The notes under the pieces: model-generated | Seen by the model: only the letters and a program-made list of their open reading frames with translations | The model's database searches: none | What the model was told of the DNA's origin: nothing | Shown: positions 7,222 through 22,904 of the stretch, one piece after another | How the letters are laid out: the number at the start of each line of letters is the position of its first letter | Numbering within the stretch: the stretch's first letter is position 1 | Source: Lunatibacter salilacus | GTDB lineage: Bacteria > Bacteroidota > Bacteroidia > Cytophagales > Cyclobacteriaceae | DNA length: 64,000 nt | Direction of reading: 5' to 3' | NCBI RefSeq assembly: GCF_009797935.1 | Contig: NZ_VOLC01000013.1 | Span: forward strand, 62,001-126,000 | Translations under genes and position numbers: made by a program

Positions 7222-7438
7222 ATGGGGAATTCTCCCTCTTTGCTTTCTATTGGATGAATTTATTTTTTTATACGATATTTTATATTAAAAATCCCTCACT
7301 AAACCCTCGTTTTACTTATTAACCGCTTTTCTAGACAATATTACAGCCGTTAACTTGATGACTGTCAAGAATTAGGGTCATTTATTTTTTTCCAAAACAA
7401 TTGCAAAGAACCAAAGTAATGGATACTTTTATAGATTA

Positions 7439-7472
7439 GTGGTAAAAAGTGGGGCATTGTGGTAGAAAGTGG
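7439..7472 (+). promoter_or_regulatory. MraZ operator: four GTGG boxes at 10-bp steps
   Basis: GTGG occurs at 7439-7442, 7449-7452, 7459-7462 and 7469-7472, exactly one helical turn apart, two of the boxes in the context AAAGTGG. MraZ proteins are known to bind tandem GTG-containing repeats with 10-bp period upstream of their own gene and repress or tune the dcw cluster. The array ends 12 bases before the -7 box at 7485, so bound MraZ would cover the -33 region. The position, period and the identity of the next gene together make this a firm call. Confidence 0.85.
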
Positions 7473-7484
7473 CTGGAGATTTGC

Positions 7485-7492
7485 TACTTTTG
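7485..7492 (+). promoter_or_regulatory. -7 box TACTTTTG of the dcw cluster promoter
   Basis: TACTTTTG matches TAnnTTTG perfectly and lies 29 bases before the mraZ ATG at 7522. A TTG at 7457-7459 is 25 bases upstream, slightly farther than the usual 19-21, and falls within the MraZ boxes. This is likely the main promoter for the 15-kb division cluster. Confidence 0.6.
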
Positions 7493-7521: not shown

Positions 7522-7971
7522 ATGGGAATTTTCATGGGCGAGTACGAGTGCAAGCTTGACGTCAAGGGACGGCTGGTACTTCCTGCAAGACTAAAAGCAG
7601 CCCTTCCTGAAAATCCCAGCAATGAGCTCTATCTCAGAAAAGGCATTGAGCAGTGTTTAATTCTTCGCACAGCCATAGAGGTAAAAAAAGAGTATAGCAA
7701 ACTCATGGATCTTGATACTACAGACGAGGAAGCCAGAAGTTTTCAGCGGGCCTATTTCCGCAGAGAGGTGATAGTGGAAATGGACAGTGCTGGGAGAATC
7801 CTTATCCCAAAATCCCTCATGGCCTATGCGCAGCTCGATGGAGAGGCCACGGTTGCGGGCATAGGAAACCGAATTGAAATTTGGAATCCGACATTGTTGA
7901 ATGAGATTGCGGATGAGGTGGACAAAAGATACGACACCTTGAACAAACAATATTTAAAAAAAGATGACTAA
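7522..7971 (+). CDS. mraZ: Transcriptional regulator and division protein MraZ
   Basis: First gene of the dcw cluster. MraZ is a ring-forming DNA-binding protein of the AbrB-like fold, built from two repeats. Here the first repeat contains EYECKLDVKGRLVLPARLK and the second VEMDSAGRILIPKSL, both with the D-x-x-G-R-hydrophobic-PxxL pattern. The frame opens from a GTG at 7459, but that codon is one of the MraZ boxes and precedes the promoter; the ATG at 7522 (MGIFMGEYEC) gives 149 residues, the normal family size. It overlaps rsmH by 8 bases. It probably represses its own operon through the four boxes upstream. Confidence 0.95.
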   Translation: MGIFMGEYECKLDVKGRLVLPARLKAALPENPSNELYLRKGIEQCLILRTAIEVKKEYSKLMDLDTTDEEARSFQRAYFRREVIVEMDSAGRILIPKSLMAYAQLDGEATVAGIGNRIEIWNPTLLNEIADEVDKRYDTLNKQYLKKDD

Positions 7972-8869
7972 AAGCCCTTACCATATCCCAGTCATGTTGC
8001 AGCCCTGCATCGAAGGCCTTGCTATAGACCCTAATGGGGTGTATCTGGACCTGACCTTTGGGGGTGGAGGACATGCGCGGGAAATCCTGAGTAAGTTGGA
8101 TAAGGGCCATTTATATGGGTTTGACCAAGATGAGGATGCGATTGTAAACGCACCTGATGATGAACGTTTCACATTTATCCATGCCAATTTCAGAGACATT
8201 AAGCGATTTCTTAGACTGTACGGAGTAGATGAAGTGGATGGGATCTTAGCAGATTTGGGCATATCCTCCCATCAGATTGACGAACCCAGCAGGGGATTCT
8301 CCACGAGGTTTGCTGGAGACTTGGACATGCGGATGAATCAGTCGGGAAACCTCACGGCTGCGGATATCCTGAATAGCTATGAAGAAAGGGAACTTCACAA
8401 GATACTCGGCCAGTATGGCGAAATCAAAAATGCCAAGACCCTCGCACGGGCAATTGTATCGGAAAGGATCCAAGAACCTATATTGACCATTGATAGGTTT
8501 AAGGCTATTTTGGACAAATTTGCTCCACGGGGAAAGGAATTCAAATATTATGCACAGGTATTTCAAGCGCTGCGGATCACCGTAAATGACGAAATGGGAG
8601 CCCTGAGGGATATGCTGGAACAAAGCAACGAGTTACTTCGGAGCAAGGGTAGATTGGTAGTCATGAGTTACCATTCCCTGGAGGACCGCTTGGTAAAAAA
8701 CTACATCAACAAAGGCAAATTCCATGGTGATGTAGAGAAGGATTTCTATGGCAATCAGATCAGACCCCTAGAACCGGTGAACCGGAAAGCCATTACGGCT
8801 AGCCCGGAGGAAATTGCCCAGAATAACCGGGCCAGAAGTGCAAAACTCAGAATAGCAGAAAAGATATAG
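7964..8869 (+). CDS. rsmH: 16S rRNA (cytosine-1402-N4)-methyltransferase
   Basis: RsmH (MraW) methylates N4 of C1402 in the 16S rRNA P site using S-adenosylmethionine. The 301-residue protein begins with the conserved HIPVM segment, has the SAM-binding block DLTFGGGGHA near residues 26-35, and the GILADLGISSHQ and SYHSLEDR motifs typical of the family. Its ATG lies inside the end of mraZ (8-base overlap), implying coupled translation. Confidence 0.97.
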   Translation: MTKSPYHIPVMLQPCIEGLAIDPNGVYLDLTFGGGGHAREILSKLDKGHLYGFDQDEDAIVNAPDDERFTFIHANFRDIKRFLRLYGVDEVDGILADLGISSHQIDEPSRGFSTRFAGDLDMRMNQSGNLTAADILNSYEERELHKILGQYGEIKNAKTLARAIVSERIQEPILTIDRFKAILDKFAPRGKEFKYYAQVFQALRITVNDEMGALRDMLEQSNELLRSKGRLVVMSYHSLEDRLVKNYINKGKFHGDVEKDFYGNQIRPLEPVNRKAITASPEEIAQNNRARSAKLRIAEKI

Positions 8870-8871
8870 CT

Positions 8872-9255
8872 ATGGGAAACAACACATTCAAACAAAAAGC
8901 TAAGTCATCCGGAGCAACAAAAAGTTCAGGTAGGTTTAACCTGTTTGCGCTACTTGAAAGAAAGCTGGCAATGACGGGACTTTTTGGCGACGGAATTCCT
9001 GTACACTTGGTCCCCCCCTTTTTATATGCCGCCCTCTTGGCACTTATATATATATGGAGCAATCACCAGGCTGATAACACCATCCGAAAAATCGAATCGC
9101 TCCAGCAGGAAGTAGAAGATATCCGCGCTGATGTGACCACGTTGGAAGCGGCGTATATGTTTGCCGGCAAGCAGTCTGAAGTTGCAAAGAAAATCGCCCC
9201 CTTGGGTATCGAAGAAATTGACGAGCCACCTTTTAAAATAATTGTTGAAAAATGA
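8872..9255 (+). CDS. ftsL: FtsL-like cell division protein
   Basis: A 127-residue bitopic membrane protein between rsmH and ftsI, the fixed position of ftsL. A basic cytosolic N-terminus (residues 1-45) is followed by one membrane segment (about 46-63) and a periplasmic coiled coil (about 66-100). Sequence similarity to E. coli FtsL is not obvious; the call rests on topology, size and position, and matches the FtsL type found in Bacteroidota. It would bridge FtsQ and the FtsW-FtsI synthase. It overlaps ftsI by 4 bases. Confidence 0.85.
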   Translation: MGNNTFKQKAKSSGATKSSGRFNLFALLERKLAMTGLFGDGIPVHLVPPFLYAALLALIYIWSNHQADNTIRKIESLQQEVEDIRADVTTLEAAYMFAGKQSEVAKKIAPLGIEEIDEPPFKIIVEK

Positions 9256-11357
9256 ACATTAAAAGGTCCATATTATTTCGAGTTAGAGTCGCCTTTCTGC
9301 TGACAAGTGCGATAGGCATCGCTATTTTTTATAAAATCACCCAAGTACAGTTTGTGGATGGAGACAAATGGAGACAGATGTCCGAAAATATACACCTGCA
9401 ATACCGTCCCGTAAAAGCTACCCGTGGCAATATCTATAGTGGTGATGGAAGTTTGCTGGCAACCAGCCTTCCCTTCTACCGGGTCGTCTTGGACCCTTCC
9501 ATTTCCAAGGAAGATAGATTCCGAAACGGTATAGACTCACTGGCTACGCTTTTGTCCGGTTACTATAAAGACAAATCCGCTACCCAATACAAGCGGATCA
9601 TCTCCGATGCGCGGAACAGTGGGAAAAAATACCTCATTATCAACAGAAAGCAAATCGGCTATCAAGAGAAATTAGCCATGATGAAGTGGCCCATCTTCCG
9701 TGATGGACGACTTGGCGGGGGAATAATTTTTGAAAAGGTGGACCAGCGCTATCGCCCTTTTCGATCACTTGCAGGCCGCACCGTGGGATTTCTCAATGAG
9801 GACGATTATGGAGTCGGGCTGGAGTACAGTTTCAATGAATTCCTGCAAGGGCGAAATGGTGAAGCATTGTTTCAGAAAATAGCTGGAGGAAGCTGGAAAC
9901 CGCTGCACGATGCGGAGGACATTAAGCCTACAGACGGTTTTGATATTGTCAGTACGCTGGATATTAATATTCAGGATGTGGCCGAATCTGCACTTCTTCG
10001 TCAATTAATCAATAAGGACGCGAATTTCGGCTCTGTGATAGTGATGGAAGTGGCCACCGGCCACATAAAAGCGTTGGCCAATCTCGAGAAAAACAAAAGT
10101 GGAAACGGTTACGGTGAAAACTACAACTATGCTGTAGGTGATCAGGGACTTACAGAACCAGGATCCACATTCAAGCTGCTTTCGATGCTGGCCTTATTGG
10201 AAGAAGGCAAAATCAGTCTCCAAGATAGTATAGACACCGGAGACGGCGTTTTCAAGTTTTACGACAGGTCGATGCGTGATGCGAAAAACGGCGGATTTGG
10301 ACGTATCACGGTTCGGGAGGCCTTTGAAAAATCCTCAAATATTGGAATTTCAAGACTTGTCAATGACCAGTTTGGCGTGGCACCCGTGAAATTTATCAAT
10401 TACATTTCCAAAGTTGGGTTGGACAAACCGGTTGGTTTTCAGCTCAAAGGGGAAGGAGTGCCTTATTTTAAAACACCCGGCACCAAAAGCTGGTACGGAA
10501 CTACGCTTCCATGGATGTCTATAGGGTACGAATTGAAGGTAACTCCCCTGCAGACCCTTACCCTATACAATGCCATCGCAAATGACGGCAAAATGGTAAA
10601 ACCCTTGATTGTAAAACAAATTTCGAAGGGCAATTACGTAGAAGAAACCTACGATACCGAAGTTTTAAATAAGCAAATTGCTTCTAAAAAAACCATCCAA
10701 TATTTGAGATCCCTTCTCGAGGGAGTAGTGGAAAATGGTACTGCCAGAAATATCCGAAATAATGATTACAGCATAGCCGGAAAAACAGGGACAGCGCAAA
10801 AACTGGTTGATGGAAGGTATACCCAAACGTACTACACCTCCTTTGTTGGATATTTTCCTGCGGACAATCCAAAATACAGTGCAATAATCGTCATAGACAG
10901 TCCTAAAGGATTTCAAGCCTACGGGGGTGACATATCTGCACCTGTATTTAAGGAAATCGCTGATAAAATCCATGCACAGGATCTAAAACTAAACTTGGAC
11001 AAAACCCTAGTAAGCAATAAAACTCCATATGCAGGGGACTTGCCATTTATTCAGGCGGGCCTGACGGAGGATGTTCAGATGCTTTGTAACAAATTTGGTA
11101 TATCCAACCACTATCAAGAGCAGGAAAAATGGGTGCGTTCGAAAGTCACCAACAAATCAATACAGTGGGTTACAAATAGAATAAATGAGAAACAGGTGCC
11201 GGATGTGACCGGAATGGCACTTCGGGACGCATTATACATATTGGAAAATAACGGATTAAGAGTCTTATTCAGCGGCAAAGGCCGGGTAAAAAGTCAGTCG
11301 CTTCCTTCAGGAACAACTATTTCGCCAAAAAGCACCATTAAAATTACTCTGGGATAA
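9252..11357 (+). CDS. ftsI: Septal peptidoglycan transpeptidase FtsI (PBP3) with PASTA domain
   Basis: A class B penicillin-binding protein that crosslinks septal peptidoglycan. The 701 residues hold an N-terminal membrane anchor (about 8-28), the PBP dimer domain, and a transpeptidase domain with catalytic STFK at 305-308, SSN at 361-363 and KTG at 511-513. The last 55 residues (VPDVTGMALRDALYILENNG onward) form one PASTA domain, as in Spo VD-type enzymes and Bacteroidota FtsI but not E. coli FtsI. It shares a TAATG stop-start junction with murE, so translation is coupled. Confidence 0.96.
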   Translation: MNIKRSILFRVRVAFLLTSAIGIAIFYKITQVQFVDGDKWRQMSENIHLQYRPVKATRGNIYSGDGSLLATSLPFYRVVLDPSISKEDRFRNGIDSLATLLSGYYKDKSATQYKRIISDARNSGKKYLIINRKQIGYQEKLAMMKWPIFRDGRLGGGIIFEKVDQRYRPFRSLAGRTVGFLNEDDYGVGLEYSFNEFLQGRNGEALFQKIAGGSWKPLHDAEDIKPTDGFDIVSTLDINIQDVAESALLRQLINKDANFGSVIVMEVATGHIKALANLEKNKSGNGYGENYNYAVGDQGLTEPGSTFKLLSMLALLEEGKISLQDSIDTGDGVFKFYDRSMRDAKNGGFGRITVREAFEKSSNIGISRLVNDQFGVAPVKFINYISKVGLDKPVGFQLKGEGVPYFKTPGTKSWYGTTLPWMSIGYELKVTPLQTLTLYNAIANDGKMVKPLIVKQISKGNYVEETYDTEVLNKQIASKKTIQYLRSLLEGVVENGTARNIRNNDYSIAGKTGTAQKLVDGRYTQTYYTSFVGYFPADNPKYSAIIVIDSPKGFQAYGGDISAPVFKEIADKIHAQDLKLNLDKTLVSNKTPYAGDLPFIQAGLTEDVQMLCNKFGISNHYQEQEKWVRSKVTNKSIQWVTNRINEKQVPDVTGMALRDALYILENNGLRVLFSGKGRVKSQSLPSGTTISPKSTIKITLG

Positions 11358-12820
11358 TGAAGCTGTTAAAGGACATATTATACAAGGTATCTCTCATCTC
11401 CACAAAAGGAGACATGGAAATCACCGTAAACAGCCTTGTCTTTGACAGTAGGTCGGTTAAAATAGGTGATCTATTTATCGCCATGCGGGGAACGCAGGTG
11501 GATGGCCATGACTTCATAGATAATGCATTGGAGCAGGATGCTTCCTGCGTGGTATGCGAAGTACTCCCCTCCGAGTTGAAAGAAGAGGTTACCTATGTAC
11601 AGGTGGTCGATGCGGCAAAGGCTCTGGGAATGATGGCTGCCAACTTCTATAACCATCCGTCCTCAAAGTTGACCTTGGTAGCTGTCACGGGTACCAATGG
11701 AAAAACCACCATGGTCACCCTTCTGCATCAATTGTTTAGCGAAATGGGATACCGGGTAGGGCTATTGTCGACGGTGGAAAACCGGATTAACGAAACCGTA
11801 TTGCCCACAACACATACCACGCCAGATGCCATTTCCATCAATCAGATTCTTCATCAGATGCTGGACGCAGGTTGTACTCATTGCTTTATGGAAGCTAGTT
11901 CACATGCCATAGTGCAGGAAAGAACGGCGGGGTTGCATTTTGCAGGGGCTATATTCACCAACATTTCCCACGACCATCTGGATTACCACGAGACCTTTGA
12001 CGCATATATTACAGCAAAAAAGAAACTGTTCGATGAACTACCGCCCAGTGCATTTGCCTTAATAAATGCCGATGACAAGAGGGGCTTGGTTATGGTGCAA
12101 AATACCAAGGCAAAAAAACATTCCTATGCACTTAAATATCCTTCTGACTTTAAGGCAAAGATAATAAACAATACTCTTCAAGGCCTGGAGTTGGAAATCA
12201 ACCACCAATCGGTCTGGTTCCGGCTAATAGGGGAATTCAATGCCTATAACCTGTTGGGGGTATATGGAACGGCCATGCTTTTGGGCGAAGAGGAAGAGGA
12301 AGTATTAAGGCAGTTATCCCAACTTAAGGGTGCCCAGGGCCGGTTTGAGCAGGTTTTCTATCGGGATATTACAGCCATTGTGGATTACGCCCACACTCCG
12401 GATGCATTGGAGAATGTGTTAAAGACCATTCAGAAACTGAGAACCGGCGGAGAGAAACTCATCACCGTAGTTGGTTGCGGTGGAAACCGAGATAAGGCCA
12501 AGCGCCCTATCATGGCAAAATCTGCCACGAAATATAGTGACAAGGTGATATTGACTTCTGATAATCCCCGCAATGAAGAACCCATGGATATCATAAAAGA
12601 CATGGAAGCGGGAATCAATCCAGTAGATATGCGCAAAACGCTAACAATCGCTGAACGAAGAGAAGCCATCAAAGCCGCCTGCGGGATGGCAACCAAAGGG
12701 GATATAATATTAATTGCCGGAAAAGGCCATGAAACCTACCAAGAAATTAAAGGGGTGAAGCACCCGTTTGATGACAGGGAAATTGTAAGAGAAATGTTAC
12801 GCTTAATTCATTCGAGCTAA
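11357..12820 (+). CDS. murE: UDP-MurNAc-tripeptide synthetase, meso-DAP adding
   Basis: Cytosolic Mur ligase that adds the third amino acid to UDP-MurNAc-L-Ala-D-Glu. The 487-residue protein has the ATP site TGTNGKTT at 111-118, the HDHLDYH block, and DNPR at 402-405. DNPR is the motif of enzymes that add meso-diaminopimelate rather than lysine, so this organism should have DAP-type peptidoglycan. Both ends use TAATG junctions, with ftsI before and mraY after. Confidence 0.97.
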
Positions 12821-14031
12821 TGCTATACCATCTTTTTGACTATATAGACAGAGTTTTTGACTTCCCCGGCGCAGGAGTCTTCCGATACATTTCGTTTCGG
12901 GCGGGAATGGCTGCGCTTTTTTCCCTAATTATCACCATTACTTTCGGTAAAAGTATCATCAACTGGATTCGTAACAAGCAAATCGGCGAATCTGTACGTG
13001 AACTTGGCCTGAAAGGGCAAATGGAAAAAAGGGGAACCCCAACTATGGGTGGGCTTATGATCATGGCTGGGATAGCCATTCCAACGCTTTTGTTTGCCAA
13101 CATCTATAACATCTATATCATCCTATTATTGGTTACAACCCTTTGGTTGGGGGCAATTGGTTTTGTGGACGATTATATCAAGGTTTTCCGCAAAAACAAG
13201 GCGGGGTTGGCCGGAAGGTTTAAGATTGTCGGTCAAGTAGTCATTGGTATAGTGGTGGGTACTACGCTTTATTTCCACGAAGATGTAGTGGTACGGGAAT
13301 TTAACCAGCCTGTCTCCATAGCAGAAGGCGTGGTAGACACACCAAGCTTCAGTGATGTGAAATCACTGAAAACCACTATTCCGTTCATGAAAGACAACGA
13401 ACTCCATTACGACAAAGTTTTCGGGGTATTGGGGGATTTTCTTACTCCCCTATTATATATAGGTTTGGTGATTTTCATTGTCACCGCCGTTTCAAATGGA
13501 GCGAACATCACGGATGGAATAGACGGATTGGCAGCCGGCACCTCTGCCATCATAGGTCTTACCATTGCTATCTATGCCTACATCAGTGGTAATGCCATAT
13601 TTTCCCAATACTTAAATGTCATGTTTATTCCCAATTCTGGAGAACTCGTGATTTTCTGTGCGGCATTTGTGGGAGCCTGTGTTGGGTTTCTCTGGTACAA
13701 TGCCTACCCTGCCCAGGTGTTTATGGGGGATACCGGAAGCCTGATGATAGGAGGAGTGATTGCGGTGCTTTCATTGACCCTACGAAAGGAGTTGCTGTTG
13801 CCATTGCTTTGTGGCGTGTTCATTATAGAACTACTCTCTGTAATCATACAGGTTACTTATTTCAAATACACCAAGAGAAAATACGGAGAAGGTAGGCGAG
13901 TTTTCCTGATGTCTCCCATCCACCATCATTATCAGAAAAAAAATATCCCAGAAGCTAAAATTACCGTTCGTTTCTGGATTTTGGGGATATTATTTGCCAT
14001 TCTGGCATTGGCTACTTTAAAACTGCGATGA
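12820..14031 (+). CDS. mraY: Phospho-N-acetylmuramoyl-pentapeptide transferase
   Basis: MraY transfers phospho-MurNAc-pentapeptide to undecaprenyl phosphate, making lipid I at the inner membrane. The 403-residue protein has about ten membrane segments. Family signatures are the [14 protein letters not shown] loop (residues about 63-78), FVDDYIKVF with the catalytic-site Asp pair, [15 protein letters not shown], and FMGDTGSL. Slightly longer than the E. coli enzyme (360) because of a loop around residues 155-200, as is common in Bacteroidota. It overlaps murD by 4 bases. Confidence 0.97.
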
Positions 14032-15383
14032 TAAAAAAGATCGTCATATTGGGTGCAGGTGAAAGCGGTGTTGGTGCCGCTCTTCTGGCGTTGGCCAACG
14101 GCTACAAAGTCTTTGTCTCCGATGCCGGAGGTATCAGTGCGCCCCGTAAGCAGCAATTGACCGCAGCCAAAATACCCTTCGAAGAATTTGGCCATACAAG
14201 TGGTGAAATCCTCGGAGCAGATGAAGTCATCAAAAGCCCGGGAATCCCCTATTCCAACCCAGTTGTGCAGACCTTAGTCGGTAATGGAATACCGGTAATC
14301 GATGAGCTTGAGTTTGCATACCGGCATTCAAGAGGTCAGGTAATAGCCATTACGGGTACCAACGGGAAAACAACCACCACACTGCTTACCTATCACCTAC
14401 TGAAAACGGCAGGTCTGAACGTAGGCATGGGGGGAAATGTTGGCAAAAGCTGGGCGGGTCAGTTAGCAGAAGAGGATTACGATTGGTGGGTACTAGAAGT
14501 AAGTAGTTTTCAGATTGAAGGGTTTATCCGGTTCAAACCAAAAGTAGCGGTCCTGTTAAACATCACACCGGACCACTTGGACCGATACGGGTATAAGTTT
14601 GAAAACTATGCTTCCACTAAGTTCAAGTTGGTGGACCGGATGGATGAAAAAGACCATTTTATTTATTTTATTGAAGATGATACCATCAGGAAGACCTTAC
14701 AGAATAAACCTTTAAAAGCCACTGGATATCCGGTTGCTAAAGCGGTTGCAAACTCAAGGGGCTTACATGCCGCAAACGGAAGCTTAAATATCAAATGGAA
14801 AGAAATTGAATTCCGGGTTCGACCTGAAGAAATGACGCTCCAAGGGGATCATAATAAAATCAATGCCCTTTGTGCGATACAGTCGGCATTACTTGCAGGA
14901 GCATTCGAATCGACTATAAAACTCGGTCTGGCAAACTTTCAGAATGCCTCTCACCGGATGGAGCAGGTTGCAACTATCCAGGGGGTGCGGTTTGTCAACG
15001 ATAGCAAGGGTACGAATGTGGATGCCACAAAATATGCCTTATCCGCTTACAGCGAACCCATTATTTGGATAGCTGGTGGAGTAGATAAAGGAAATGATTA
15101 TGAGGCCTTGCTTCCGCTAATCGAGGGACGGGTGAAAGGGCTTATCTGTCTGGGGAAAGACAATGAAAAGTTAAAAAGTGCCTTTATGGGAAAAATTCCG
15201 CAAATCAAGGAAACCCAATCGATTCAGGAAGCGGTCAAAACCGCACTGACCTGGGGTGAACCTGGGGATTTGGCATTGCTCTCTCCGGCCTGTGCAAGTT
15301 TTGATTTGTTCAAAAATTATGAAGACCGTGGAGACCAGTTTAAAGCTGCTGTCAATTCATTAAAGGAAAAGATAGCATCATGA
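14028..15383 (+). CDS. murD: UDP-MurNAc-L-alanine--D-glutamate ligase
   Basis: Cytosolic Mur ligase that adds D-glutamate to UDP-MurNAc-L-Ala. The 451-residue protein starts with a Rossmann-like N-domain ([12 protein letters not shown]), has the ATP motif [11 protein letters not shown] near residues 104-114, the [10 protein letters not shown] block and the late DNPxxx-equivalent region [17 protein letters not shown], which identifies it as MurD rather than MurE or MurF. It follows mraY with an ATGA overlap. A 58-base gap with a palindrome separates it from ftsW, the only notable gap in the early cluster. Confidence 0.97.
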
Positions 15384-15389
15384 AATCGA

Positions 15390-15412
15390 GCCTGCCTACC
15401 GGACAGGCAGGC
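15390..15412. repeat. Palindrome GCCTGCCT-N7-AGGCAGGC between murD and ftsW
   Basis: An 8-bp perfect inverted repeat (15390-15397 and 15405-15412) with a 7-base loop. It starts six bases after the murD stop and is much GC-richer than its surroundings. There is no U tract, so it is not a standard terminator. It looks like a short REP-type palindrome; only one copy is present in this window. Confidence 0.7.
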
Positions 15413-15441
15413 ATGGCATTAGAAAAAGAAATTATGAACAT

Positions 15442-16611
15442 ATGAAACCGATAAAACTTTGGCTTGAGGAAAATTTAAAAGGTGACCCCATCATTTGGGG
15501 GATTGTGATCCTGCTTTCCATCTTAAGTATATTGGTGGTATACTCCGCCACGGGCTCTCTGGCCTATAGAATGGTCGGCGGCAATACGGAAGTGTACCTC
15601 ATAAAGCACGGATCCTTAATCATGGCTAGCCTTGTAGTAATGTGGGGTGTTCATAATATCCCATATAAGTACTTCGCCAAGCTCAGCCTGTTGGCCCTTT
15701 GGATAAGTATCCCCTTGCTCCTCATAACCTATTTGTTTGGCTCGACCATCAACGAGGCCAACCGATGGTTGACAATACCGATTATTAATCAGGCATTTCA
15801 GCCTTCTGATCTGGCCAAACTGGCTCTAATCTCCGCAGTAGCAGGCATGCTTGCCAAACGGCAGCGACAAATCGCTGATTGGAAAAAAACATTTATCCCC
15901 ATCATTGCGTGGATCGGTATCATTTGCATGTTAATCGGATTTGCCAATATGTCCACCGGGGTAATGCTTTTGGCGACCTGCCTTTTGCTGATGTTTATTG
16001 GACGGGTTCCATTTAAATTTCTGGTGATTGTGCTTGCAGTTGGAATGATGGCGTTGACTTCTGCCATTATGCTAGGGCAGCGAGGAGGTGTGTTCTTTTC
16101 CAGAATAGAAAGCTTTCTTAATGAGGATGAAAAAGAACTGCCCTATCAGGCCAAGCATTCCTTTATTGCCATTGCAACTGGTGGAATAGCGGGGAAGGGA
16201 CCCGGAAAAAGTGAACAACGAAATGTCCTGCCCCACCCTTATTCCGACTTCATCTTCGCAATCATTATCGAGGAATACGGTCTGATTGGTGGCGGTGGCG
16301 TGCTATTCCTTTACCTGGCCCTCCTTTATCGGGGAATGCGCGTGGTGGCAATTTCCACTCGCCCCTTTGGGGGTTTGTTGTCCGCCGGTTTAAGTTTTGC
16401 ACTGGTCATTCAGGCTATGATTAACATGGCAGTGGCCGTTGGGTTGGTACCAATTACAGGTTTGCCCCTACCAATGGTCAGCATGGGGGGTACTTCCCTG
16501 ATATTTACTGGGATATCCCTGGGAATCATTTTGAGTGTCAGCCGGGGAGACCATGAAGATGCCTTCCCTGCCGACACCAACAGCATTAGAAGAGTAGCTA
16601 AAGCCGCATAG
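15442..16611 (+). CDS. ftsW: SEDS-family septal glycosyltransferase FtsW
   Basis: Polytopic SEDS protein that polymerises lipid II at the septum together with FtsI. The 389 residues contain about ten membrane segments, the periplasmic-loop stretch YQAKHSFIAIATGG, and the signature region GLVPITGLPLPMVSMGGTS near the C-terminus. Its position between murD and murG identifies it as FtsW rather than RodA. It begins 58 bases after murD, with a palindrome in the gap, and stops two bases before the murG TTG. Confidence 0.94.
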   Translation: MKPIKLWLEENLKGDPIIWGIVILLSILSILVVYSATGSLAYRMVGGNTEVYLIKHGSLIMASLVVMWGVHNIPYKYFAKLSLLALWISIPLLLITYLFGSTINEANRWLTIPIINQAFQPSDLAKLALISAVAGMLAKRQRQIADWKKTFIPIIAWIGIICMLIGFANMSTGVMLLATCLLLMFIGRVPFKFLVIVLAVGMMALTSAIMLGQRGGVFFSRIESFLNEDEKELPYQAKHSFIAIATGGIAGKGPGKSEQRNVLPHPYSDFIFAIIIEEYGLIGGGGVLFLYLALLYRGMRVVAISTRPFGGLLSAGLSFALVIQAMINMAVAVGLVPITGLPLPMVSMGGTSLIFTGISLGIILSVSRGDHEDAFPADTNSIRRVAKAA

Positions 16612-16613
16612 TC

Positions 16614-17726
16614 TTGGAAAACGAAAATAAAACATATCGCATGATCATTAGTGGCGGAGGCACCGGGGGACATATCTATCCCGCCATTGCCATTGCACAC
16701 GCGTGGTCGCAGAGATATCCGGGAACTGATATTCTATTCGTCGGGGCTGAGGGTAAAATGGAAATGCAGAAAGTACCGGAAGCGGGCTATAAAATTGTGG
16801 GCCTGCCAATAGCAGGTCTGCAGCGGAGTCTCTCCCTCAAAAACCTCAGCTTTCCCTTCAAAGTGTTGAGCAGCCTTAAAAAGTCAAAAGAAATCATTCG
16901 TTCTTTCTTACCTGATTTGGTAGTTGGAGTAGGTGGTTACGCAAGCGGGCCCATACTCTTTACGGCTCAGCAAATGGGCATTCCCACCCTGATTCAGGAA
17001 CAAAATTCCTACGCAGGTTTGACCAACAAGCTTCTGGCAAAAAAGGCCAAAGCTATTTGCGTAGCGTATCCTGGGATGGAAAAATTCTTTCCTAAGGATC
17101 GGCTTCATTATACAGGCAATCCAGTAAGGAGTGACATCTTGGATTTGGAGGGTAAAAAAGAAATTGGAATTGCCCATTTTGGCTTGAACCCTGATTTGCC
17201 CACCCTATTGGTGCTGGGAGGTAGTCTAGGAGCACGGACAATCAACCAAGCAATTGCAGCATCCATGGGGCTTTTCCAGGCTAAGGGGTATCAAGTACTT
17301 TGGCAAACGGGCCGTTATTATTTCAACGATATGAAAAATCTGGTGGCAAGTAGCGGGTTTAAAGAGATTCACCCCAAGGAGTTTATACTGGAGATGGATT
17401 TGGCCTATGCCGTGGCGGATTTAGTAATTTCCCGTGCGGGAGCCTTGTCGGTTTCTGAACTTAGCCTTGTAGGAAAGCCTGTCATTTTCATCCCTTCGCC
17501 AAACGTAGCCGAAGATCATCAGACCAAAAATGCAATGGCATTCTTCTCCGAAGCCGCTGCTTTGATACTACCAGACGACGAGGCCGTGGAGAAATTACCG
17601 GAACTGGTGGATAAACTGATGAGCGATAAGGCAACTAGGCACTCTCTTGGAGAAAACATAAAAAAACTGGCCAAAAAAGAGGCCGCAAATGAAATTGTAA
17701 CAGTGTTGGAATCAATGATCAAATGA
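16614..17726 (+). CDS. murG: UDP-GlcNAc:lipid I N-acetylglucosamine transferase
   Basis: MurG adds GlcNAc to lipid I to make lipid II on the inner face of the membrane. The 370-residue GT-B enzyme has the N-terminal SGGGTGGHIYPAIA loop, GVGGYASGP, IQEQNSYAG, and the C-domain GGSLGARTIN and VISRAGALSVSE motifs that bind UDP-GlcNAc. The start is a TTG two bases after the ftsW stop; an ATG at 16641 would give a protein nine residues shorter, just before the loop. The TTG form fits the usual N-terminal length better. It overlaps murC by 4 bases. Confidence 0.95.
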   Translation: MENENKTYRMIISGGGTGGHIYPAIAIAHAWSQRYPGTDILFVGAEGKMEMQKVPEAGYKIVGLPIAGLQRSLSLKNLSFPFKVLSSLKKSKEIIRSFLPDLVVGVGGYASGPILFTAQQMGIPTLIQEQNSYAGLTNKLLAKKAKAICVAYPGMEKFFPKDRLHYTGNPVRSDILDLEGKKEIGIAHFGLNPDLPTLLVLGGSLGARTINQAIAASMGLFQAKGYQVLWQTGRYYFNDMKNLVASSGFKEIHPKEFILEMDLAYAVADLVISRAGALSVSELSLVGKPVIFIPSPNVAEDHQTKNAMAFFSEAAALILPDDEAVEKLPELVDKLMSDKATRHSLGENIKKLAKKEAANEIVTVLESMIK

Positions 17727-19123
17727 ATTTAAAAGGCTTACATAGCGTCTATTTTCTAGGTATCGGAGGCATTGGCATGAGTGCCATTGCACGGTGGTTT
17801 AACTATATCGGAGTTCCAGTGTATGGTTATGACAAAACCCCGTCTCCCCTTACGGAAGCTTTGTCTCAGGAAGGCATTGCAATTACCTATTTGGATGCCG
17901 TTGATCAGCTTCCTTCTGACTTTGCTTCTGACACTCAAAATCGTTTAGTCATCTGGACTCCGGCAATACCTCAAAACTCGGTATTAAAAAATCACTTGAT
18001 ACAGTCCGGCTACATATTGAAAAAAAGAGCGGAGGTACTCGGAATGATTACGGAAAACATGTACACCGTAGCAGTAGCGGGTACCCATGGAAAGACTACA
18101 ACCTCTTCTTTGGTAGCCCATTTATTAAAGCATGCGGGGAAAAATATTGCGGCGTTTCTGGGAGGACTCACCCAGAATTATCAAAACAACCTAATCCTGC
18201 ACGATGAGGGGAGTGATGAAAACCCTATCGTAGTGGTAGAAGCGGATGAATTTGACCGTTCCTTTCTACACCTTCACCCAAATATCAGCATTGTCACCAG
18301 TGCAGATCCGGACCATTTGGATATTTATGGGGATGCTAGCCATTTGTTGGATGGCTTCAGAAGTTTTATTCGCCTGACCAATCCAACAGGTAAACTCTTT
18401 ATTCAGAATAGGGCACTGAAAAAACTTGGAAGAAATGTATTGGGAAATACGGCCCTCTACGAATATGGCCTGGAATCGACGGATATCAAAGCGACAAGCA
18501 TCGTTGCGGGAATAAAAGGGTTCACCTTTGACTATGTAGCTGGAGATGTTCAGATACCCTCCTTGCTACTTCCCATTCCAGGGTTTCATAACATTGAAAA
18601 TGCACTAGCCGCAATTTCCGTAGCCTTACATGTAGGCGTGACTCAAGAACAGATCCGGAGTGGATTAGACTCCTATTTAGGGGTAAAAAGAAGATTCGAA
18701 GTAGTCTATCAGGATGAAAAACGTGTTTATATCGATGACTACGCACATCATCCCGAAGAAATCCGAGCCTTTCTAAGTTCAGTTCGGGCTATTTATTCCG
18801 ACAAGAAAATTACGGCGGTGTTTCAACCTCACCTGTTCTCCCGAACCAGAGATTTTGCCGAGGGCTTTTCGGAAAGCCTTTCACTGGCTGACGAAGTAAT
18901 TCTTTTGGACATTTACCCCGCTAGAGAACTTCCAATCCCAGGAGTAAAAGCTGAGATGCTATTGGACGGCATCACATCCGCAAAAAAAGGTATGAAGTCG
19001 AAGGAAGAATTGCTTTCCTATTTAGACCACCAACAACCGGAAGTCTTGGTAACCATTGGTGCCGGAGATATTGATAGATTGGTTTCACCAATTTCAAACT
19101 GGATGCAACATGGAAAAGCCTAG
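17723..19123 (+). CDS. murC: UDP-N-acetylmuramate--L-alanine ligase
   Basis: First Mur ligase, joining L-alanine to UDP-MurNAc. The 466 residues show the N-terminal GIGGIGMSAIARW glycine loop, the ATP-binding AGTHGKTTTSSL near residues 116-127, the VEADEFDRSFL block specific to MurC, and YIDDYAHHPEEI. It starts in an ATGA overlap with murG and overlaps ftsQ by 14 bases. As in other Bacteroidota, neither murB nor ddl lies between murC and ftsQ. Confidence 0.97.
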   Translation: MNLKGLHSVYFLGIGGIGMSAIARWFNYIGVPVYGYDKTPSPLTEALSQEGIAITYLDAVDQLPSDFASDTQNRLVIWTPAIPQNSVLKNHLIQSGYILKKRAEVLGMITENMYTVAVAGTHGKTTTSSLVAHLLKHAGKNIAAFLGGLTQNYQNNLILHDEGSDENPIVVVEADEFDRSFLHLHPNISIVTSADPDHLDIYGDASHLLDGFRSFIRLTNPTGKLFIQNRALKKLGRNVLGNTALYEYGLESTDIKATSIVAGIKGFTFDYVAGDVQIPSLLLPIPGFHNIENALAAISVALHVGVTQEQIRSGLDSYLGVKRRFEVVYQDEKRVYIDDYAHHPEEIRAFLSSVRAIYSDKKITAVFQPHLFSRTRDFAEGFSESLSLADEVILLDIYPARELPIPGVKAEMLLDGITSAKKGMKSKEELLSYLDHQQPEVLVTIGAGDIDRLVSPISNWMQHGKA

Positions 19124-19877
19124 TAAATGGAGGATCAAGAAATCTGTGATTTTTGCCCTTTTGGGGGTAATTGTCCTGGTATATATTGCCTTTATTGAGC
19201 ACCGGGGAAAGGATAAGCAATTCTCCGGACTTGAAGTATATGTGGAGGGAATTAGCCAAGTCTACTTTGTGGAGGAGAAGGATATTCACGCGATGCTGCA
19301 ACGTGAATTTCCCGAATTACAACCTGGCGAATCGCTGCGGAAGATTTCTCTTTATGATTTGGAGAAGAAGGTAGAAAGCCATCCGTTCGTCCGCGATGCC
19401 GATGTATTTGGGGATTTGAAAGGCAAAATTATGGTCAAAATCTCTCAGCATATTCCAATGGCCCGCATCGTCAGGCCTATGGCTGCAGATGGCTACATCA
19501 GCACAGAAGGCAAGATCCTGCCGTTGTCCACCAATTTCACTCCCCGGGTCATTACTGTAGAAGGTAGAGGCGCTGACAAAATATTGGAAAAGGGAGAGTT
19601 GGGAGCAGAGCATGAAGGGTTTTTGAATTTACTGACGTTCATTACCAAATCTGACTTCTGGAGTGCCCAAATCAACGCCATGGACTTGCTCTCTAACGGT
19701 GAAGTACTGCTTCATCAGCAGGTGGGGAAACAGGTGATCGAATTTGGCAAACCGGAAGAAATTGAGCGAAAATTTCAAAAAATCAACCTGTATTACAACG
19801 ATATAGTGCCCAAAAAAGGCTGGAATGCCTATAGCAGGGTGAATGTAAAATTTAAGGATCAGATCATTTGTGAATAA
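19110..19877 (+). CDS. ftsQ: Cell division protein FtsQ
   Basis: A 255-residue bitopic protein: short basic cytosolic tail (MEKPSKWRIKKS), one membrane segment (about 13-30), then a periplasmic POTRA-like region (SGLEVYVEGISQVYFVEEKDI) and beta domain. FtsQ links FtsL to the divisome. The frame is open from 19056, but the first 18 codons would lie in murC; the ATG at 19110 places the basic tail directly before the membrane segment and is preferred. It precedes ftsA by 11 bases. Confidence 0.88.
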   Translation: MEKPSKWRIKKSVIFALLGVIVLVYIAFIEHRGKDKQFSGLEVYVEGISQVYFVEEKDIHAMLQREFPELQPGESLRKISLYDLEKKVESHPFVRDADVFGDLKGKIMVKISQHIPMARIVRPMAADGYISTEGKILPLSTNFTPRVITVEGRGADKILEKGELGAEHEGFLNLLTFITKSDFWSAQINAMDLLSNGEVLLHQQVGKQVIEFGKPEEIERKFQKINLYYNDIVPKKGWNAYSRVNVKFKDQIICE

Positions 19878-19888
19878 CAATAAGCGCT

Positions 19889-21211
19889 ATGGAAAACGAA
19901 AAATTAGTAGTAGGACTTGATATTGGTACTACCAAGATATGCGCCATCATTGGGCGCAAAAATGAATACGGAAAGCTGGAAGTACTTGGTATGGGAAAAG
20001 CGGTGTCTGAGGGAGTCATACGGGGCATTGTAACCAACATCGACAAAACTGTAAATGCCATCCAAAAGGCAGTCAACGAAGCGTCTGAAATGTCAAATGT
20101 GGATATCGGGGAGGTAATCGTCGGTATTGCGGGACAGCATATCCGAAGTTCCGTACATCATGGCGTTATTATACGAAATACCAAGGATGATGAGATCACC
20201 GTAGAAGACGTTCGGCGGATGGCCAATGATATGGAGAATATCATCGTGCCTCCAGGTAACAAAATTATTCACGTGATGCCGCAGGATTACACCGTAGACT
20301 ACGAAGATGGTGTAAAGGATCCTGTGGGCATGTCCGGCGCCCGCTTAGAAGCCAATTTCCACATCATTACTGCACAAAGCTCTGCGATATACAATATTAG
20401 CAAATGCGTAAAGCGCGCCAACTTACAGTCTAAAGATCTTATTCTGGAACCCCTGGCAAGTTCTTTGTCCGTTCTCAGTGATGAGGACAAAGAGGCTGGT
20501 GTATGCCTTGTGGATATAGGAGGAGGCACAACGGATGTAGCCATTTTCTATGACAACATCATTCGGCATACGGCTGTGATCCCTTTTGGCGGAAATATCA
20601 TTACTGCGGATATAAAGGAAGGATGTATGGTCATGCAAAATCAGGCTGAACTGCTGAAAACTAAATTTGGCAAAGCCATTGCGGAAGAGGCCAATCCGAA
20701 TGAGATTGTTTCTATTCCAGGATTGAGAAACCGACCACCAAAAGAAATATCCGTAAAAAATCTTGCATCAATCATTCAGGCTAGAATGGAAGAAATTGTG
20801 GAAATGGTGCAGTCAGAAATTGTAGCCAGCGGTATTTACAAAAAACTGGCCGGAGGCATCGTCCTTACAGGAGGCGGTTCGTTGTTGAACGGTGTGAGCC
20901 CATTGTTTGAGTACATGACCGGACTGGACACACGCATCGGATACCCCAACGAACATTTGGGGAAATCTAAGGTAGAAGACGTGAAAAGCCCCATGTATGC
21001 GACTACAGTTGGTCTGGTCTTGGCAGGATTCAAGGCCTTGGACGACCGGGAAGAAACCTACCGGGAAAAGGAAAAAGCACTGCAAACCAACGGAAAACCC
21101 AAAATCAACAAAATCGAAACCCATATGTCGAAGGATATATTCAGCAACATAACCAAGAAACTGAAAAATTTCATCACCGATGACATTAACGACGATACGA
21201 GCAGTTACTAA
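19889..21211 (+). CDS. ftsA: Cell division protein FtsA
   Basis: Actin-fold ATPase that anchors FtsZ to the membrane. The 440 residues begin with the phosphate-1 motif VVGLDIGTTKICAIIG, contain the SHS2-type 1C domain, the phosphate-2 motif VDIGGGTTDVAIF near 210, and GIVLTGGGSLLNGV near 330. The C-terminus is an amphipathic helix candidate (DIFSNITKKLKNFITD) suited to membrane binding. It lies directly upstream of ftsZ, separated by 76 bases. Confidence 0.96.
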   Translation: MENEKLVVGLDIGTTKICAIIGRKNEYGKLEVLGMGKAVSEGVIRGIVTNIDKTVNAIQKAVNEASEMSNVDIGEVIVGIAGQHIRSSVHHGVIIRNTKDDEITVEDVRRMANDMENIIVPPGNKIIHVMPQDYTVDYEDGVKDPVGMSGARLEANFHIITAQSSAIYNISKCVKRANLQSKDLILEPLASSLSVLSDEDKEAGVCLVDIGGGTTDVAIFYDNIIRHTAVIPFGGNIITADIKEGCMVMQNQAELLKTKFGKAIAEEANPNEIVSIPGLRNRPPKEISVKNLASIIQARMEEIVEMVQSEIVASGIYKKLAGGIVLTGGGSLLNGVSPLFEYMTGLDTRIGYPNEHLGKSKVEDVKSPMYATTVGLVLAGFKALDDREETYREKEKALQTNGKPKINKIETHMSKDIFSNITKKLKNFITDDINDDTSSY

Positions 21212-21287
21212 TTCAGAAACTGGAACCGTGTCCGGAAAAAATTAAAAGAAAACAGCCAAGTTATTATTCACCAAAATACGAGGAAAA

Positions 21288-22904
21288 ATGTCAGAAATCA
21301 TGAAAGATTATAAATTTGATATTCCCAGAAACAACAAGTCGATCATCAAGGTGATCGGCGTAGGAGGAGGCGGATCCAATGCCGTCAACCACATGTATAA
21401 TCAGGGCATTAAGGACGTGGAATTTGTGGTGGTCAACACAGATGCCCAAGCCCTTAAAAACAGCCCTGTTCCGCTCAAAATACAAATTGGGACCAACCTT
21501 ACCGAAGGTCTTGGGGCGGGCGCCAATCCGGAAAAAGGTAAAAACGCAGCCGTCGAAAGCAAGGATGAAATCCGTGAATTACTTTCAGACAACACCAAGA
21601 TGATTTTCATCACCGCTGGAATGGGCGGTGGTACAGGTACCGGTGCGGCCCCAGTAATCGCTAAAATCGCCAAGGATATGGACATCCTGACGGTAGGAAT
21701 CGTAACCGCTCCCTTTATCTTTGAAGGTAGAAAAAAAATACAATCGGCCCAAGAAGGTATTGAAGCCCTTCGCAACAATTGTGACACCGTGTTGGTCATT
21801 TTGAATGACAAATTGCGGGATATCTACGGTAATTTACCCATTCGGCAAGCCTTTGGAAAGGCCGACAATATCCTGACTACCGCTGCCAAGTCCATTGCGG
21901 AGATCATCACGGTACACCAGGACGTGAATGTGGATTTTGAGGACGTGAAAACGGTCATGAAAGATGCAGGCGCTGCCGTCATGGGATCTGCCACTGAAGA
22001 AGGAGACGAGCGGTCAATTCGGGCTGCTGAGAAAGCCATTTCATCACCACTTCTTAACAATGTGGACATCAAGGGAGCACAAAAAATCCTCCTTTCCATT
22101 ATGTCAGGTGAAGAAGAGGAACTTTCCATGGATGAACTGAGCGATATCACGGAATATATCCGGCAAAAAGCAGGGGATTCCGCAGATGTCATATTTGGAC
22201 AAGGCATTGATCCTGATCTGAAAAAAGGTATCCGTGTCACTGTCATAGCTACTGGATTTGAACCGGATTCAATAACAGAGAAACATAATATAGGGACAAA
22301 AAAGCAGGATGACTCAAAAAAGGTTATCGATCTGGAATCGGGAAAAACTTCTAAAATAGACGAAGAACAGGAGACGAAAACAGGTCAAACCTTTACCTTC
22401 TCCATCCAAAGCCCCAAGCTACAAGCTGAACCTCCAAAAGGATCAAAACATGAGGAGGATACCCAGCCAGTTTCTGAGCAACCAGTTTACAAAAAGCTGG
22501 AGGAACCCCTTGATGAGGAAGAAGATTTTGTTTTTGAAACTCCCCAGTCAACTGCTGACTCTAAGCGTGTTTTGACCCTTTTTGACAAAAACGATGAAGA
22601 ATATACAACTCCCAAAAGCCAAAAAGGTCCTGAGGAAAGTATTCAGCATCAATTTTATCAGGATATCAAGGAAAAGGCACTTAGAAGGGTTCACGACAGG
22701 TTTGAGAAGTTACGTCAAAACAGATCGGTAAACCAGTCACCTGAGGAGTTTAAAGAAAAGATCGAAGTGCCTGCCTATCTGCGCAAAAATGTAAAGTTGC
22801 AGGATGTAGCGCACAGTTCGGAAAGATCCATTTCAAAGTTTAACCTAAATGATGACAACGAAATCATCAGCAACAACCGGTTTTTGCACGACAATGTCGA
22901 TTAA
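21288..22904 (+). CDS. ftsZ: Cell division GTPase FtsZ with extended C-terminus
   Basis: Tubulin-like GTPase that forms the Z ring. The 538 residues contain GGGGSNAV near 26-33, the GTP signature GGGTGTG at 113-119, and NxDFxD-type switch residues in VDFEDVKTVM. After about residue 330 comes a long charged linker, then VPAYLRK at 494-500, which corresponds to the conserved C-terminal peptide that binds FtsA in other bacteria. Unlike E. coli FtsZ, about 38 residues follow it, ending in NNRFLHDNVD. The gene's stop shares the palindrome TTAA with the stop of the convergent reductase gene. Confidence 0.96.
   Translation: MSEIMKDYKFDIPRNNKSIIKVIGVGGGGSNAVNHMYNQGIKDVEFVVVNTDAQALKNSPVPLKIQIGTNLTEGLGAGANPEKGKNAAVESKDEIRELLSDNTKMIFITAGMGGGTGTGAAPVIAKIAKDMDILTVGIVTAPFIFEGRKKIQSAQEGIEALRNNCDTVLVILNDKLRDIYGNLPIRQAFGKADNILTTAAKSIAEIITVHQDVNVDFEDVKTVMKDAGAAVMGSATEEGDERSIRAAEKAISSPLLNNVDIKGAQKILLSIMSGEEEELSMDELSDITEYIRQKAGDSADVIFGQGIDPDLKKGIRVTVIATGFEPDSITEKHNIGTKKQDDSKKVIDLESGKTSKIDEEQETKTGQTFTFSIQSPKLQAEPPKGSKHEEDTQPVSEQPVYKKLEEPLDEEEDFVFETPQSTADSKRVLTLFDKNDEEYTTPKSQKGPEESIQHQFYQDIKEKALRRVHDRFEKLRQNRSVNQSPEEFKEKIEVPAYLRKNVKLQDVAHSSERSISKFNLNDDNEIISNNRFLHDNVD

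Follow-up and report, generated by a model that had tools for sequence, protein, structure and literature searches.

A direct repeat of four GTGG cores in front of mraZ in Lunatibacter salilacus is very probably an MraZ operator, as judged from sequence comparisons. The cores were located at positions 7439, 7449, 7459 and 7469 of the window, the 64,000-nucleotide stretch of DNA that was analysed, at exact 10-bp steps on the plus strand, and were followed by a -7 element, TACTTTTG (7485-7492), and by the ATG of mraZ at 7522. The initial annotation, which had placed four GTGG at these positions before a -7 box and mraZ, agreed exactly with the sequence. The likeliest function, which we consider quite probable, is that bound MraZ would exclude RNA polymerase and thereby autorepress mraZ and the co-transcribed division genes. 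Among the matches listed by literature searches that paired MraZ with a Bacteroidota term, no title or abstract opening dealt with the site in this phylum.

The array was unique in the genome. The pattern GTGG-N6-GTGG-N6-GTGG occurred in the window only at this place, as two overlapping matches (0.01 expected; two matches in 0 of 100 shuffles), and in the 6.79-Mb genome (6,791,886 bases) the three-box pattern had two forward matches, both in this array, and no reverse match. The same pattern read backwards had one match in the genome. The uniqueness in the window and genome, together with the shuffle counts across Bacteroidia given below, ruled out a chance origin. There were at least three direct GTG-core repeats at 10-bp steps, the arrangement looked for in an MraZ operator, and they lay in the promoter region of mraZ, the first gene of the dcw cluster. 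The quality of the boxes was unequal. The units were TTAGTGGTAA for box 1 (7439-7442), AAAGTGGGGC for box 2 (7449-7452), ATTGTGGTAG for box 3 (7459-7462) and AAAGTGGCTG for box 4 (7469-7472). The AAAGTGK unit was matched in full by boxes 2 and 4, and boxes 1 and 3 had an intact GTGG with two changes each in AAA (TTA and ATT, respectively). The strict pattern AAAGTGGN3AAAGTGG had no match in the L. salilacus genome.

The adjoining gene, mraZ (7522-7971, plus strand), encodes the regulator itself and was assigned to Pfam family PF02381 with 86.1 bits. The protein showed the MraZ fold and a pair of MraZ domains, both carrying a DxxxR motif. Its AlphaFold model (pLDDT 89.6) gave a Z score of about 18 to the MraZ proteins of M. 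pneumoniae and M. genitalium, the next other entry scoring 5.6, and the absence of other families in the structure search carries no weight as evidence. The model could also be aligned with chains from 9r4j and 9sz7, two complexes of MraZ with DNA. The title of 9sz7 describes M. genitalium MraZ in complex with a '4 box promoter'; compared by title, the M. genitalium complexes (9sz7, 9r4j) hold a four-box promoter bound by MraZ, like the four boxes of the window. The binding of several subunits of an MraZ ring to the four boxes would fit the title of 9sz7. There was no paper on MraZ-DNA structures among the literature matches listed.

Three sets of mraZ upstream sequences were collected to make a sample of 200. 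The order-level search covered 39 genomes, L. salilacus and 38 relatives, and contributed the 30 that had mraZ, 22 of which carried three perfect GTGG just before the gene. The class search covered 119 genomes, 110 with mraZ, of which 90 were taken (30 as loci and 60 by region); two others, G000 and G036, had entered with the order set; 18 were left out, 17 with weaker matches outside those listed and G120. The third set consisted of 80 named contigs, the best 80 of 369 loci. Five duplicates and one short upstream sequence were removed, leaving 194 loci for analysis. The score was the number of GTGG letters found in three boxes at 10-bp steps, with a maximum of 12. It was 12 in 127 loci, 11 in 44, 10 in 16 and below 10 in seven, so that 171 of the 194 scored at least 11 and 187 at least 10. 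In 1,940 shuffled sequences, a score of at least 11 was never reached and a score of 10 was reached in seven. The loci are related by descent, so these counts are not independent.

A similar site therefore precedes most of the mraZ genes examined in the class Bacteroidia, and the proposal that the MraZ circuit has been kept in this Bacteroidota lineage is supported. Loss of the repeats in close relatives had been named as an outcome that would refute the proposal; the genome of the same genus, G001, retained three GTGG, the fourth being GTGT. The four-box form is partly local, as three boxes were found in 148 of 170 arrays. The loci closest by DNA among the best 80 of 369 named loci were those of Pleomorphovibrio marinus (L134) and Pararhodonellum marinum (L161), the former genus being placed in the Cyclobacteriaceae, order Cytophagales. 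The strict pattern AAAGTGGN3AAAGTGG had matches in 40 of 149 class genomes, 29 of which had a listed mraZ position; on comparison by eye the match was just upstream of mraZ in 27 of these, the two in which it was not being G059 and G134.

Genomes without mraZ were examined in the same way. No mraZ was detected in nine genomes of the order set and nine of the class set, and rsmH was found in eight and seven of these, respectively. Anchoring succeeded for 14 of the 15 main rsmH loci, and none of the 14 had a three-box score of at least 10 within 900 bases of rsmH. The site was thus kept where mraZ is kept (171 of 194) and absent where it is lost (0 of 14), with one exception. A matrix scan of the 15 rsmH loci on both strands revealed a single strong two-box site (26.5 bits; next best 10.2) in G037 (L041), a 1.6-Mb genome, upstream of what appeared by eye to be an interrupted mraZ before rsmH. 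Since the bases between the boxes and rsmH resemble an interrupted mraZ, G037, which belongs to the 14, cannot count as a clean negative and was dropped as an mraZ-less control.

The box unit derived from Bacteroidia was AAAGTGG[T/G]AR, and the T of GTGG was conserved at 99 percent. The site given for Mollicute MraZ in PMC5282649, (AAAGTGKN3)3, agrees with it in unit and step and differs in phylum. The matrix counts of forward arrays are partly circular because the matrix was built from those arrays; this circularity affects neither the plain count of letters nor the tests on E. coli and on inverted arrays. When applied to E. coli K-12, the Bacteroidia matrix found GTGG at -44, -34 and -24 relative to the mraZ ATG, with 28.4 bits. 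We take these to be the published E. coli MraZ boxes. The latter were described by Eraso 2014, as cited in PMC7761207 and PMC8475190; further sources are PMC5138195 and, as cited, Fisunov 2016. E. coli and the window share direct repeats with a GTGG core, set 10 bp apart, in front of mraZ. The three E. coli boxes lie downstream of a TTGACA/TAAACT-like promoter, whereas the four boxes in the window lie upstream of the main -7 element. The conservation, the co-occurrence with mraZ, the E. coli control and the Mollicute consensus all argue in favour of the earlier suggestion that the repeats are MraZ boxes.

The consensus of the DnaA box is TTATCCACA. Six relatives had arrays of GTGGATAA at 10-bp steps away from mraZ (G002:C20, G003:C410, G004:C295, G019:C11, G021:C19 and G022:C17), which read as tandem TTATCCACA DnaA boxes, and these raise the possibility that the GTGG repeats are DnaA boxes or the site of another factor unrelated to MraZ. 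This is very improbable for three reasons: 1) the boxes in the window read GTGGTAAA, GTGGGGCA, GTGGTAGA and GTGGCTGG, 2) the site accompanies mraZ and is absent from the genomes that lack it, and 3) the matrix made from Bacteroidia also locates boxes before E. coli mraZ. A DnaA box cluster was rejected for the window array, as none of its four boxes reads GTGGATAA. A G-quadruplex formed by the G runs has an even more slender chance of being correct. The array does contain four runs of at least two G within 34 bases, and PMC11796246 reports such a structure for S. aureus, in a G-rich stretch that follows the mraZ promoter, but conservation falls on GTGG at exact 10-bp steps, including its nearly invariant T, and a G-quadruplex needs neither. 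The S. aureus G-rich stretch may itself consist of MraZ boxes.

The main, downstream promoter is represented by the -7 element TACTTTTG at 7485-7492 on the plus strand, which reads as the TAnnTTTG of Bacteroidetes sigma-A promoters. Its TTTG begins 20 bp after the start of box 4, and mraZ starts 30 bp after the element. Taken alone, the element is no evidence, because TANNTTTG occurred in the window at chance frequency (68 occurrences versus 63.0 expected); its weight comes from the conserved spacing, as 161 of 193 Bacteroidia loci have a TANNTTTR 16-32 bp downstream of the last box. PMC7366714 gives the promoter consensus as TTTG/TAnnTTTG, from which the -33 position was placed at 7463-7465 (plus strand), 19 bp before the -7 element and directly 3' of box 3. 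A TTG-type -33 element was not found at this expected place, which reads TAG; the same paper cites a like situation for johnsoniae. The -7 box is located at -12 to -5 in PMC9723704, and the boxes in the window would therefore begin near -58, -48, -38 and -28 of the main start site.

The array kept a fixed register with the promoter. Measured in 170 arrays, the interval between the last GTGG and the TTTR of TANNTTTR was 18-20 bp in 81, 30 bp in 62 and elsewhere between 13 and 31 bp in eight, and no TANNTTTR was present 12-45 bp after the last box in 22. Box offsets were then counted for 102 promoters of the order and 53 others with TANNTTTR 16-32 bp after the last box, going back from TTTG and snapping to the 10-bp register of each array. 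GTGG was present in the order promoters at -30 in 100 of 102, at -40 in 86, at -50 in 67 and at -20 in 38, with ATGT, TTGT or GTGT at -20 in a further 42; the offsets -30 and -40 are favoured by construction, because arrays with at least three boxes ending near -20 or -30 were chosen, and the exact letters are unaffected by this choice. Outside the order, GTGG was found at -40 in 46 of 53, at -30 in 45 and at -20 in 46. The window has GTGG at all four offsets, -50 (box 1), -40 (box 2), -30 (box 3) and -20 (box 4), and G001 has GTGT at the fourth box. Counted without snapping, TTG stood exactly at -26, which is the -33 position with a 19-bp spacing, in 39 of the 102 order promoters and in none of the 53 outside the order.

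Two further elements were found on the 5' side of the array. In the window, a second -7-like element, TACTTTTA (7424-7431, plus strand), has its TTTA 11 bp before box 1 and is a candidate promoter. Among 105 order loci, 14, including several close relatives, had a TANNTTTR in the interval from -16 to -8 of box 1, and all 14 had it at exactly -11 (about one expected in a 9-base bin); none of the 82 loci examined outside the order had one. Should the window element be active, transcription from it would start near 7436, beneath the array, an arrangement similar to that of E. coli. The other element, TTWTYMAC (TTTTCAAC, TTATTAAC and TTATCAAC), occurred at most 16 bases 5' of box 1 in 54 of 82 Bacteroidia loci outside the order versus 5 of 105 inside it; we take it to resemble a DnaA box with changes.

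The position of the array relative to the promoter differed between Bacteroidia and the other classes of the phylum, promoters being recognised in all cases by consensus only. Of the 194 Bacteroidia loci, nine had TTGAC 15-75 bp upstream of box 1 and 159 had TANNTTTR 16-32 bp beyond the last box (the figure of 161 of 193 comes from a slightly different count). In 24 loci from other classes, by contrast, TTGAC preceded the array in 21 and TANNTTTR followed it in none; TANNTTTR within 40 bp before box 1 was seen in 20 of 194 Bacteroidia loci versus 5 of 24. The search of other classes covered 46 genomes, 43 of them with mraZ, and the 24 are those returned as loci; the array is less regular there, as only 11 of the 24 scored at least 11 of 12. 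E. coli also has TTGAC upstream of the array and no TANNTTTR after it. In B. cenocepacia, MraZ shifts a fragment holding four seven-base repeats with 3-base spacers, like those of the window, and according to PMC7761207 these repeats follow the -10 box 'as in E. coli'. The B. cenocepacia site lies over the start site, downstream of the -10 box, whereas the window array is upstream of its -7 element. As judged by these consensus matches, the Bacteroidia arrays are mostly on the opposite side of the promoter from that of E. coli.

On the reverse strand, 25 of the 194 upstream sequences scored at least 10, and inverted arrays were therefore looked for, defined as a pair of boxes 10 bp apart on the opposite strand with more than 13 bits, at most 500 bp upstream. 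They were found in 10 of 30, 25 of 89 and 40 of 74 loci of the three sets, that is 75 of 193, compared with 0 of 600, 2 of 1,780 and 4 of 1,480 shuffles. As controls, forward pairs beyond the main array numbered 1, 1 and 0, and the next commonest spacings gave 2, 6 and 11. The 25 inverted arrays of the class set came from 19 families. The 75 inverted arrays were located about 60-385 bp upstream of the mraZ array (for example L028, L052, L116, L164 and L190); codon use may account for some of them, which fall within coding sequence, and L. salilacus and G001 have none.

An operator of a divergent gene was considered as an explanation of the inverted arrays and found to be unsupported. The nearest long ORF was on the minus strand in 37, on the plus strand in 33 and absent in six of 76 loci with an inverted pair within 1,450 bases, the corresponding numbers for 115 loci lacking such a pair being 71, 39 and five, and none of the 75 pairs within 500 bases had TANNTTTR 16-32 bp after it (background 0.042), versus 161 of 193 forward arrays. 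A point in its favour is that TANNTTTR occurred within 60 bases before the inverted array in 8 of 75 (background 0.051). One reading is that MraZ may hold a DNA loop between the two arrays; helical phasing of the gap between them was weak and depended on the period assumed. A bolder scheme, which we regard as rather doubtful, is that the switch to TAnnTTTG promoters flipped the Bacteroidia circuit, such that the operator, which elsewhere follows the -10 element, came to lie upstream, interlocked with the -33 position, and MraZ would compete with sigma instead of blocking the start site. In this scheme the inverted two-box arrays, which some two fifths of the loci carry 60-385 bp upstream and which lack a promoter in front of them, would let the MraZ ring hold both arrays in a loop of DNA.

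For the window itself, we infer that neighbouring subunits of the MraZ oligomer would each read one box, AAAGTGG[T/G]NN, on one face of the helix. Box 3 abuts the -33 position and box 4 falls in the spacer, so that bound MraZ would keep sigma and RNA polymerase off the main promoter; it would also cover the start site of the upstream promoter-like element. The predicted outcome is autorepression of mraZ and the co-transcribed division genes. Occlusion of RNA polymerase is the likeliest mechanism, given that the array borders the -33 position and holds a fixed register with the -7 element. Least certain is the sign, because in N. elongata deletion of mraZ lowers the dcw genes and overexpression raises them, MraZ setting the expression of the first dcw genes positively where repression is proposed for the window (PMC9395523). 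MraZ might bind the boxes and activate, the array at -58 to -28 on the polymerase face aiding a weak promoter that lacks a good -33 element. The location of the array upstream of the -7 element in a fixed register, the TAG at the -33 position and the N. elongata precedent are all consistent with activation. Nevertheless, we think it unlikely: a protein bound to box 3, which abuts the -33 position, and to box 4, which follows it, should keep sigma out, MraZ acts as a repressor in both E. coli and M. genitalium (PMC8475190), and the start site of the second -7-like element would sit under the array. MraZ and its operator form a regulatory pair that is widely conserved at division clusters. With the class-wide site, its register and its placement on the opposite side of the promoter, the action of one regulator on two promoter types could be tested directly, as could the question whether the reported differences in the sign of MraZ action follow from operator position.

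Downstream of mraZ are mraW/rsmH (7964-8869; Pfam PF01795), an ftsL-like gene (8872-9255; Pfam PF19579) and ten more ORFs ending with ftsZ (9252-22904), named by eye from their translations and, like the others, on the plus strand. The 13 same-strand genes are separated by gaps of -14 to +76 bp, the start of ftsQ being assumed at 19110. Small gaps and the absence of TANNTTTG from the two largest intergenic gaps of the cluster permit one long transcript, and six plus-strand occurrences of TANNTTTG inside cluster genes make internal promoters possible. Scans for sigma-70 promoters and terminators gave numbers near those of shuffles (39 versus 33.9 and 22 versus 19.1, respectively). Control by MraZ over all 15.4 kb of this cluster of about 15 kb would be allowed. 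In other species the effects of MraZ take in only part of the cluster: in N. elongata, deletion of mraZ affects five genes downstream of it (PMC9395523), and the effect of E. coli MraZ extends from mraZ to murC, as cited in PMC7761207. The gap before ftsW, at 15384-15441 of the window, contains an inverted repeat, GCCTGCC...GGCAGGC, and a similar GGCAGGCAGG stretch was seen before mraZ in G015.
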